A DNA stretch of 64,000 bases from Clostridia bacterium (GTDB taxonomy: Bacteria > Bacillota > TC1 > UBA5767). Positions 7,471 to 42,470 of the stretch are shown here, in pieces (the stretch's first letter is position 1; every line of letters begins with the position of its first letter). The position numbers and the translations under genes are program-made. The notes beneath the pieces are model-generated. The model ran no database searches. It was given only the letters and a program-made list of their open reading frames with translations, and had not been told where the DNA came from. Location of the stretch: assembly GCA_016887505.1 (NCBI GenBank), contig CP069393.1, positions 2,193,001 through 2,257,000 on the forward strand, read 5' to 3'.

Positions 7471-7498
7471 TTAGAACTATGTTTTGATATGCGATGAT

Positions 7499-7547
7499 GT
7501 GGGAGGTTGCTAGTCCTTTTTTCCTAAAGGAACCTAGGTTTTTCCAC
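7499..7547 (+). promoter_or_regulatory. Candidate structured leader of the S10 operon
   Basis: Within the 178-base gap between tuf and rpsJ, three nested helices can be paired: 7499-7504 with 7542-7547, CTAG 7510-7513 with 7534-7537, and TCCTTT 7514-7519 with 7526-7531. The position directly before rpsJ suggests an autoregulatory leader; which ribosomal protein would bind is not visible. I do not match it to a named RNA family. Confidence 0.4.
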
Positions 7548-7588
7548 TGAGTATGTCCGCATGAAATACGGGCGAAGGAGGAAGTAAT

Positions 7589-36433: not shown

Positions 36434-36472
36434 GATATGGAAAAAGTTTTCACGAGAGAAGAGGTGCTGGAA

Positions 36473-37309
36473 ATGAATTACAAAGATGATTTGGGATTGC
36501 AACCAAGGATCCGGAGCAGTTATATGCGCTTGCACCCTGCTGAAAAAAAGATAGCAGACTATATCTTGGAAAATGAGACCACTTCTACGATAGATATTGA
36601 TACCTTGGCCAACAAAACGCAGACAAGTAAGGCCAGTGTAAGCCGATTCTGTCGGCGCTTAGGCTATGGCGGATTCAAGGAGTTCAGCCTCCATCTAGCC
36701 CAAGAAAATATTGCGAAATCCAAAACGGATGAAGCGGTCGGTCTAATACGAAAGACCATGTACGCCAACGCCCAAGCCTGCCTCGATACCCAGTATCTTT
36801 TGGATGAACAGCAAATTGAGAAAATTGCTGGAAGCATTGCGCAGGCCAGCCGGATTTTTCTAGTTGGTTCCTCTGCGGTTGCGCCCATAATCCTTGATTT
36901 CTCTCAGAAGATGCTTCGTTTGGGTATTGTATGCCACTATGACCAAGCAAGACGCATTCAGAAGATGCAGGCGGCCGTCTCCGGGCCTTTAGATTTGGTC
37001 ATAGCCTTTGACCTTTCCGGAGAAGCAAAGGGCACCATAGAGGCTGTTAGCATAGCTAAAAAGATGGGAGCGCAGATTATTACGATTTGCTGCGGCATTG
37101 GATCTTCACTTAGTGAGCTATCTAGTATTCACATATATGGTGTGGGCCAAAAAATGGGCAATTATGTTACCGGCACTGGGGAAACAAGGATTTCCCTATT
37201 GAATATTGTCGATGTCATATTCTATAGACTTATGGAGATCATGCCAGCTGATAAAAGAGATGAAATGCTGAACAAGACCAAGGATATAATCCTTGAAGAT
37301 TGGAACTGA
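36473..37309 (+). CDS. MurR/RpiR-family transcriptional regulator
   Basis: A 278-residue repressor/activator with an N-terminal RpiR helix-turn-helix (ADYILENETTSTIDIDTLA, then KASVSRFCRRLGYGGFKEF) and a C-terminal SIS sugar-phosphate-binding domain (IFLVGSSAVAPIILDFSQKML, VIAFDLSGEAKGTIEAV). I set the start at ATG 36473, behind GAAGAGG, because an ATG at 36437 would lie upstream of the predicted transcript start. No sugar-metabolism gene is adjacent; the next gene, 27 bases on, is a redox flavoprotein, so the effector is unclear. Confidence 0.88.
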   Translation: MNYKDDLGLQPRIRSSYMRLHPAEKKIADYILENETTSTIDIDTLANKTQTSKASVSRFCRRLGYGGFKEFSLHLAQENIAKSKTDEAVGLIRKTMYANAQACLDTQYLLDEQQIEKIAGSIAQASRIFLVGSSAVAPIILDFSQKMLRLGIVCHYDQARRIQKMQAAVSGPLDLVIAFDLSGEAKGTIEAVSIAKKMGAQIITICCGIGSSLSELSSIHIYGVGQKMGNYVTGTGETRISLLNIVDVIFYRLMEIMPADKRDEMLNKTKDIILEDWN

Positions 37310-37336
37310 TGCACGTTTAGAAAAAAGGAGGAAGTT

Positions 37337-37945
37337 ATGAAAATTATTGCAATATCTGGAAGCCCCCGAAACAAGGCAACGCAACATGTAGCAGAAGTGG
37401 CGCTTGCGAGCATCAAAGAAAAATACCCCGACATGGAGACGGAACTGATCTCTTTGAAAGGGAAAAAGGTAGAACCATGTACTGCCTGCGATTATTGTAA
37501 ACGCAAAAAAGATTGGTGTATCATAAAGGATGATGCCAATGATATGATTAAGGAGATTGTTACAGCAGATGGTATACTCATGCTTAGTCCAGTGTATGTG
37601 ATGGAACCCACCCCCCAGCTGATGGCTCTTTTTTCACGCATGCGTCCACTCCATCACGTATATCAAGATATAACCAGGCATAAGCTCGGTGCTAGTATTG
37701 CTGTTGGAGGAACTCGAAATGGTGGACAAGAGATTGCAGTCAATACGATGAATAACCTGCTTTTAGCCCGTGGAATCAATGTGGTTTCAAATGAAGCTTT
37801 CGGCTACCATGGTGGTAAAGTTTGGTCTAAAGACCAAGGTGCAGCAGGTGTAGACGCCGATGAAATTGGTATGAAGACGGCGATACAAGTGGCACAAAAA
37901 TTGGCTGAAATGGTGTCTTTAGTATGCAAGGGAAAAGAAGAATAA
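37337..37945 (+). CDS. Iron-sulfur flavoprotein, NADPH-dependent FMN reductase fold (Isf family)
   Basis: A 202-residue flavodoxin-like protein. The FMN phosphate loop SGSPRNKATQ follows the first strand. A compact Cys cluster, CTACDYCKRKKDWC (spacing 2, 2, 6), matches the 4Fe-4S ligand block of archaeal/clostridial iron-sulfur flavoproteins, known as electron carriers or oxygen/peroxide-detoxifying reductases. SPVYVMEPTPQLMALFSRMRP and GGTRNGGQE complete the FMN site. It probably forms an operon with the RpiR gene. A close relative lies at 48239. Confidence 0.88.
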   Translation: MKIIAISGSPRNKATQHVAEVALASIKEKYPDMETELISLKGKKVEPCTACDYCKRKKDWCIIKDDANDMIKEIVTADGILMLSPVYVMEPTPQLMALFSRMRPLHHVYQDITRHKLGASIAVGGTRNGGQEIAVNTMNNLLLARGINVVSNEAFGYHGGKVWSKDQGAAGVDADEIGMKTAIQVAQKLAEMVSLVCKGKEE

Positions 37946-41165: not shown

Positions 41166-41173
41166 GTGTGACT

Positions 41174-41866
41174 ATGTTTGCAGAAAATGTATCATTGCTA
41201 GTAGCCTTTGGAGCCGGCCTGGTGTCTTTTTTTAGTCCTTGTATTTTGCCTTTGATCCCAGTATATATTTTTTATATCTCTGGTACGACCATGGCAGAAG
41301 CGAAAACGAATCGCAGTAGGACCATGGTAAGGACTTTGGGCTTTGTCATTGGCTTTAGCCTTATCTTTATCTTAATGGGTTCCACGGCCAGTGCCATAGG
41401 GCGATTCTTGTTAACGGAAAGAGTTTGGTTTACTAGAATCAGTGGCGCTTTGCTACTCGTGTTGGGTTTACAGATGCTGGGTGTTATCCATTTGCCTTTT
41501 TTGGAAATGGAAAAGAGATTGGAAGGACCGAAAAAAAAGGGAGGCTGGCCAACGTCTATCCTGATTGGTATGGCCTTTGCGGCAGGTTGGACTCCTTGTT
41601 TTGGACCTATTTTGGCTTCCATATTAATGCTCGCCGGACAGTCTGACACGATGGGACACGGCATGTTGTTGCTTTTAATCTATTCTTTGGGTATGGGTAT
41701 TCCCTTTCTACTTACCGCCTTTTTTATTGACCGATTTAAGGGATTTATTGCCAGGAATGAACGCTTGATTCGGCTATTGCCCAAGCTGGGTGGAATAATG
41801 ATGGTGCTATTTGCATTGTTGTTGCTGTTTGAACAGATGGGCAGAGTAGCCTCGCTGTTTGGTTAG
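41174..41866 (+). CDS. ccdA: CcdA-type thiol:disulfide transmembrane electron carrier
   Basis: 230 residues with six predicted membrane helices. The redox Cys pair is present: Cys23 in SFFSPCILPLIPVY and Cys142 in AAGWTPCFGPILAS. CcdA moves reducing equivalents from cytoplasmic thioredoxin to extracytoplasmic thioredoxin-like proteins. The ATG at 41174 fits the preceding GTAGG; a GTG at 41168 is the alternative. The gene is 8 bases upstream of the thioredoxin-like selenoprotein, its obvious partner. Confidence 0.94.
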   Translation: MFAENVSLLVAFGAGLVSFFSPCILPLIPVYIFYISGTTMAEAKTNRSRTMVRTLGFVIGFSLIFILMGSTASAIGRFLLTERVWFTRISGALLLVLGLQMLGVIHLPFLEMEKRLEGPKKKGGWPTSILIGMAFAAGWTPCFGPILASILMLAGQSDTMGHGMLLLLIYSLGMGIPFLLTAFFIDRFKGFIARNERLIRLLPKLGGIMMVLFALLLLFEQMGRVASLFG

Positions 41867-41874
41867 GAGGATAA

Positions 41875-42417
41875 ATGCGTAGAAAATTTTGGAGACGTGG
41901 TGGATTGCTATTGCTGACGTTTCTTTTGGTAACCGGTTGTTCAAAGCCGGTATCCGAGGTAGAGCTTCTGAGTTATGTAGACGACGGTACGGAACTCGCG
42001 ATTGAAGAGACGGTTCCTAGTTTTACACTCACTAGTCTAGATGGTGAAGAGGTCTCAATAGAGGATTACCGAGGTCAAATGGTACTGTTAACCTTCTTTT
42101 CCACGGGCTGACACTTTTGTAAAGAGGAGTTGCCTCTTTTAGAAGAAGTGGATGCAGCAAATGAGGATACTAAAGTAATCGTTGTCAACGTGGGTGAAGA
42201 CCTGCAAAGTGTGCAGGATTATGCTGAAGAAGGTGGCTATGATTTGACCATCTTGTTGGATCCGGATGCGCTATTGAGCAGAAAGTACTTAATCAGTGGT
42301 GTGCCGACAACTTATTTTATTGCTACGGATGGAGCCAATTTGGGTGCCTACCAAGGTATGTTGCCTAAGGAGCGTGCTGAAATGTTTTTAGAAGCCATTC
42401 GGGAGAACAAGCAGTGA
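41875..42417 (+). CDS. TlpA/ResA-like thioredoxin lipoprotein with selenocysteine at an in-frame TGA (U79)
   Basis: A 180-residue lipoprotein read through TGA at 42109-42111. A signal peptide ends in the lipobox LVTGC (Cys22). The TlpA-like domain follows: PSFTLTSLDGEEVSIEDYRG, the strand VLLTFFSTG, then U79-H-F-C82, KEELPLLEEV, and the cis-Pro loop GVPTTYF. The frame resumes without shift, and the TGA sits where homologues have the first Cys of CxxC, giving UxxC. A SECIS-like hairpin follows. It probably receives electrons from CcdA on the outer membrane face. A pseudogene is the alternative, but the exact site and flanking conservation argue against it. Selenocysteine machinery is not in this window. 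Confidence 0.88.
42112..42150 (+). promoter_or_regulatory. SECIS-like element directly after the TGA codon
   Basis: An apical stem of 7 perfect pairs joins 42121-42127 to 42133-42139 around the loop AGTTG, with G in the second loop position; the loop starts 17 bases after the TGA. A lower stem pairs 42112-42118 with 42144-42150 with one G-U, separated by a small internal loop. This fits the bacterial SECIS arrangement recognised by SelB. Confidence 0.8.
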
Positions 42418-42442: not shown

Positions 42443-42470
42443 AAAGACTGTGGCATATGCCACAGTCTTT
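42443..42470. terminator. Bidirectional terminator between selenoprotein and csp genes
   Basis: A perfect 28-base palindrome (AAAGACTGTGGCAT and its complement), T-rich on both exits, between convergent genes. Confidence 0.85.

Follow-up and report, generated by a model that had tools for sequence, protein, structure and literature searches.

An apparently stop-broken gene beside ccdA in a Clostridia bacterium is almost certainly an intact gene for a TlpA-like lipoprotein with an active-site selenocysteine

An open reading frame that the standard genetic code would break at an internal stop is almost certainly an intact gene for a membrane-anchored redox protein with selenocysteine (Sec) in its active site. 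The gene, here called Sec-TlpA, lies at 41875-42417 of the window, by which we mean the whole 64,000-nucleotide stretch of DNA that was analysed. Very probably it is one gene whose UGA is read as Sec under the direction of a SECIS element and whose product is an exported, CcdA-reduced extracytoplasmic selenothiol reductase lipoprotein, a reading in which we infer the Sec insertion, the lipidation, and the electron flow. The features on which this scenario is built are as follows.

41168-41866, + strand: ccdA (DsbD_TM; PF02683, 75.6 bits), a membrane electron carrier and the probable reductant of Sec-TlpA.
41865-41870, + strand: Shine-Dalgarno sequence for Sec-TlpA, AGGAGG, which overlaps the stop codon of ccdA (from sequence).
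41875-42417, + strand: Sec-TlpA gene, encoding a signal peptide, a lipobox, a TlpA/ResA domain, the active site U79-H-F-C82, and a cis-Pro-type loop GVPTT (P144) (from translation with TGA as U, PF00578, a structural model, and Foldseek).
41938-41940, + strand: lipobox Cys22 (LVTGC), the predicted lipidation site; G21-C22-S23 is kept in the three-species alignment.
42109-42111, + strand: UGA codon, very probably read as Sec (residue 79), at the nucleophilic Cys position of the CxxC motif (TGA in both congeners, Cys in TGA-free homologues).
42112-42150, + strand: putative bSECIS hairpin, with lower stem 42112-42118/42144-42150, upper stem 42121-42127/42133-42139, and apical loop AGUUG at 42128-42132 (from folding and conservation).
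42443-42470, + strand: terminator-like 14-bp palindrome (28 bases) 3' of the gene, closing the ccdA-tlpA pair (from sequence and folding); a similar palindrome lies downstream in genome G002.

When TGA is read as a residue, the frame runs for 180 codons, with its coding part at 41875-42414, its closing TGA at 42415-42417, and a single internal TGA as residue 79 (U79). This lone in-frame TGA falls exactly on the first Cys of the TlpA/ResA CxxC motif and turns it into U-H-F-C, as an earlier note made from the sequence had claimed. That note also held that the sequence on both flanks is family-like, a view borne out by PF00578 (AhpC/TSA), which together with Redoxin gives the best Pfam matches of the protein and which covers residues 44-153, running over the TGA, and scores 67.7 bits (cut-off 26). 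The splitting that it anticipated from standard gene calling is equally apparent, since the standard code yields a 78-residue piece and a 95-residue piece, the latter starting from TTG at 42130. Its description of a 180-residue lipoprotein needs one amendment: the frame does encode 180 residues, and the mature form, counted from Cys22 of the predicted lipobox LVTGC, would have 159.

The window contains 52 ORFs of at least 60 amino acids that end in TGA, and in 7 of them the frame stays open beyond the TGA for 60 codons or more. Of these seven, the Sec-TlpA ORF alone shows a CxxC-like context at its TGA, a comparison that for the remaining six covered the context at the TGA, family scores being obtained for Sec-TlpA. 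At 36437-37945 of the window, an ORF that by eye resembles an RpiR-like regulator ends in TGA, and its frame stays open for 211 codons into the next ORF, which starts at 37337; most likely, two neighbouring genes share one reading frame here.

Two other species of the genus carry orthologues, with identities of 74% and 63% in the local match and of 74% and 60% when aligned in full, and each has one TGA, at the same codon as 42109-42111, with the rest of the frame kept. The residues on either side of the TGA are conserved in the alignment of all three species, whose active-site motifs read TFFSTG-U-HFCKEELPL, TFFAST-U-HFCKEELPL, and TFFSST-U-FYCKEELPL. Homologues free of TGA have Cys at the residue-79 position, the outcome that the earlier note had proposed looking for. 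A 69-row tree, whose homologues come from within the phylum and outside it, has Cys here in 59 rows and TGA in the other 10; the three genus members form one group with 98% SH-aLRT support. A single search of the genome contigs returned distant Cys homologues only, no relatives were found among viral contigs, and all homologues from a plasmid search were below 60% identity, none being closer.

A SECIS element is also expected of a bacterial selenoprotein, and prediction places a bSECIS-type hairpin where one should be. Directly after the UGA, a two-part hairpin at 42112-42150 folds with a minimum free energy of -15.1 kcal/mol (z of -4.0; 0 of 200 shuffled sequences were as stable), and the orthologous hairpins of the two congeners fold alike, with z of -2.7 and -2.6. 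A bSECIS is constrained to an apical loop of 3-9 nt with a G in its first two positions, an upper stem of 4-16 bp, and a spacing of 16-37 nt between UGA and loop (PMC13188914, a review). The hairpin agrees on each count, with a 5-nt loop, AGUUG, in which G stands second and is followed by U, an upper stem of 7 bp, and a spacing of 16 nt. Upper stem and loop are identical in the three species and lie within the longest run of identical DNA in the three genes, 20 nt. Synonymous codons are identical in 19 of 21 comparisons at the upper hairpin versus 124 of 303 outside the hairpin region, and for the 13 codons that follow the UGA a Fisher test yields p = 0.0001, the pairwise comparisons being non-independent. 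The same DNA also encodes the conserved residues KEELPLL, so part of its conservation is due to conservation of the protein. The upper stem, being invariant in the three sequences, is uninformative for covariation; the lower stem pairs imperfectly in the most divergent congener and shows a single two-sided change besides three broken cells, too slight a record to prove or disprove the stem. Rfam, at gathering thresholds, finds no SECIS in the window, where its sole match at those thresholds is an S10-Clostridia ribosomal protein leader at 7485-7575 (37.9 bits).

The genome that carries the window, a single contig of 2.56 Mb, holds all the machinery that the reading calls for and that the earlier note had listed as selA, selB, selC, and selD. 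We found a tRNA-Sec with anticodon UCA (64.8 bits), selA (576.3 bits) followed directly by selB (366.8 bits), and selD (374.7 bits); selA, selB, and selD are above cut-offs in this genome and in both congeners. GrdA, the glycine reductase selenoprotein A, is an established selenoprotein, and the grdA and selD genes of the window's genome have one in-frame TGA each, which suggests that other genes of this genome also use UGA for Sec. In one congener a third grdA copy (G001:C15:18122-18465), near an intact one, is apparently broken by one TGA and two TAA codons. Across 35 relatives surveyed for selA matches over the cut-off, the gene is present in all 8 with a Sec-type homologue, in G251, which has a TGA at a Trp position, and in 18 of the 26 others, an association that is weak by itself.

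Against this record we weighed other accounts of the internal TGA. The codon might really be TGT or TGC, each one base away, or the gene might be a fresh pseudogene, and isolated TGAs do occur, as the G251 homologue, with its CxxC kept, illustrates. However, because two congeneric genomes, whose proteins are 74% and 60% identical to this one, have TGA at the same codon in frames that are otherwise intact, sequencing error or gene decay is very unlikely, and it is mainly this conservation that excludes a chance TGA; the ribosome-binding site is moreover intact and a terminator-like palindrome is present. Taken together, we give an error or a recent nonsense mutation almost no credence. If UGA were instead a true stop, the product would be a 78-residue secreted lipopeptide, with the second part made from TTG 42130 or left untranslated, and the standard code does yield exactly these two ORFs. 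The thioredoxin fold, however, is a single unit across the TGA, the second half would lack both a signal peptide and the active-site motif in its entirety, all three species conserve residues to either side of the codon, and in-frame UGA appears to be used in selD and grdA of the same genome, all of which makes termination at this codon very improbable. Readthrough with Trp or some other amino acid, which would leave a protein lacking its nucleophile, would likewise need an open downstream frame; yet homologues have Cys rather than Trp at the position, and both the Sec machinery and the bSECIS-type hairpin are in place. We regard such Sec-free readthrough as extremely unlikely, and retain the decoding of UGA as Sec.

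The genomic setting and the predicted fold indicate what kind of protein this Sec would serve. The stop codon of ccdA lies 8 bases before the Sec-TlpA start codon, ccdA is the only PF02683 match in the window's genome, and it stands directly upstream of Sec-TlpA in all three species; a ccdA also adjoins the Sec-type homologue of G011, lying upstream of it, in a genome that has a Cys paralogue (L024) besides this Sec form (L070). G002 carries a further ccdA, fused with or next to a TlpA domain of the Cys type with the motif ATGCPPC (L078, G002:C8); the window's genome yielded no comparable second pair. On sequence grounds, the conserved ccdA gene pair and the lipobox LVTGC would mark Sec-TlpA as a lipoprotein of the Etrx type. 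An AlphaFold2 model has a mean pLDDT of 81.6, exceeding 90 over most of the domain; in it U79 immediately precedes helix 80-95, as P144 does strand 145-149. The prediction is thus a thioredoxin fold in which UxxC opens the first helix with a cis-Pro-type P144 opposite, as expected of a TlpA/ResA-like oxidoreductase. Foldseek ranked ResA first, with an rmsd of 1.3-1.6 Å and pneumococcal Etrx2 close behind, and Etrx2 is the top PDB match by sequence.

From these data we can outline a mechanism. The hairpin at 42112-42150 would direct SelB and Sec-tRNA-Sec to decode UGA 42109-42111 as Sec. After export, the protein would receive its lipid at Cys22 and stay anchored to the membrane on the outside. 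CcdA would carry electrons from cytoplasmic thioredoxin across the membrane and, by analogy with CcdA2-Etrx2, may reduce the Se-S bond between U79 and C82, after which the reduced selenolate could reduce disulfides or oxidised thiols of extracytoplasmic partner proteins. That Sec in place of the attacking Cys would make a very reactive extracytoplasmic reductase, as the earlier note proposed, is something that we can reasonably infer. As to clients, a role in System II cytochrome c maturation is unlikely, ResB (PF05140) having no match in the window's genome (G000), G001, or G002. A secreted Msr is also a doubtful client: on inspection by eye, MsrA and MsrB of G000 show no signal peptide, and a search of G002 yielded no MsrB, so the substrate known for Etrx probably does not apply here.

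Sec might be inserted into a protein whose partner is other than CcdA, or whose role is peroxidase-like instead of disulfide reduction. The best Pfam matches, to AhpC/TSA and Redoxin, point that way, and Sec is common in peroxiredoxin-like proteins (PMC13188914); the CxxC-type active site, the cis-Pro-type loop, the ResA/Etrx-like fold, the pairing with ccdA in three species, and the ccdA beside the Sec homologue of G011 all speak against it, and we judge it unlikely. Within the preferred reading, that of a CcdA-reduced disulfide reductase, we lean slightly toward a broader scenario: a Sec version of the CcdA-Etrx pathway, in which the genus's CcdA-served reductase has become selenium-dependent and is without a role in cytochrome c maturation, and in which several Cys-to-Sec changes occurred among the TlpA-like proteins of the phylum.

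To fit the 69-row tree, Cys and Sec must have been exchanged at least five times, and several independent gains of Sec among TlpA-like homologues are likely, on a topology whose deep branches are weakly supported. Another Sec-type TlpA-like group occurs in different families of the phylum (G052, L071 2984-3661; G023, L072 2878-3483; G029, L074 2602-3417), with the motif FFS[LMP]G-U-xx-C-V-x-E-x-LQLQP and no obvious ccdA adjoining. Further TlpA-like genes have TGA at the first CxxC position, namely L070 (G011; WASW-U-PNC), L111 and L112 (G285; WYTG-U-PTC), and L114 (G127; WATT-U-PYC). In L113, the homologue from G251, the TGA occupies a Trp position and precedes the first Cys by four residues (NF-U-SLNCSYC, where G045 has NFWSLNCSYC); Sec is a less plausible reading here than an error or gene decay. 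Two genomes of the same order carry a Prx-like gene whose motif, F[IM]-U-PFC, includes a TGA (L073 in G009 and L075 in G006).

The consequences for annotation are direct. Gene-finding software would probably annotate Sec-TlpA as two fragments, and NCBIfam models would probably not rescue it, because no model with a known cut-off was reached. With the TGA read as Sec, what seemed a damaged gene becomes a working one. TlpA-like homologues that contain TGA also occur in several further families of the phylum, which suggests that genes are misannotated in this way more widely. The ccdA/Sec-TlpA pair also offers a clean, testable case for what selenium buys an extracytoplasmic reductase.

In CDD, cd02966 is the TlpA-like family. 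A 2026 review of the prokaryotic selenoproteome lists among predicted selenoproteins a thiol-disulfide isomerase-like protein (cd02966, UxxC), a UGC-containing TlpA disulfide reductase, and a redoxin family protein (PF08534, UxxC) (PMC13188914), and the GOS survey reported Trx-like and Prx-like UxxC forms (PMC2398784). Sec-TlpA resembles the TlpA-like entries of the review in its Sec-containing active-site motif, a UxxC in the cd02966 form, and differs in having a motif of its own, TFF[SA][ST][TG]-U-[HF][FY]-C-K, a comparison made by description. Within the literature searched, the only paper to bring CcdA, TlpA, and selenoprotein together appears to be a transcriptome study. Several NCBIfam models share with Sec-TlpA a Sec or Cys in a thioredoxin fold: NF041054 (WAxxUGC_long, ResA-like) and NF040769 (SelL-related) give weak but significant matches, at 29.7 bits against a cut-off of 300 and 33.3 bits against 120, and NF053656 (TUGYCR redoxin) matches weakly, in only two of the three genus members.

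ResA of Bacillus subtilis (NF002854; PDB 1ST9, 2F9S) provides both the best fold match and the best NCBIfam model; unlike ResA, however, Sec-TlpA scores 84.2 bits against the NF002854 cut-off of 170, has no ResB found with it, and carries Sec in place of Cys. Pneumococcal Etrx2 is a surface lipoprotein encoded in a two-gene operon with ccdA2, in a model in which cytoplasmic thioredoxin feeds electrons to CcdA, CcdA to Etrx, and Etrx in turn to surface MsrAB2 (PMC3914529). The CcdA2-Etrx2 system of Streptococcus pneumoniae (PDB 2YP6, 4HQZ; PMC3914529) shares with ours the pairing of ccdA with a lipoprotein gene and the thioredoxin fold of the lipoprotein, whereas Etrx2 has Cys rather than Sec and serves MsrAB2, a secreted Msr of a kind not seen here. 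A TlpA-like UxxC selenoprotein is thus already catalogued as a kind, and it is well supported that the gene at 41875-42417 is a new, lineage-specific example of it.
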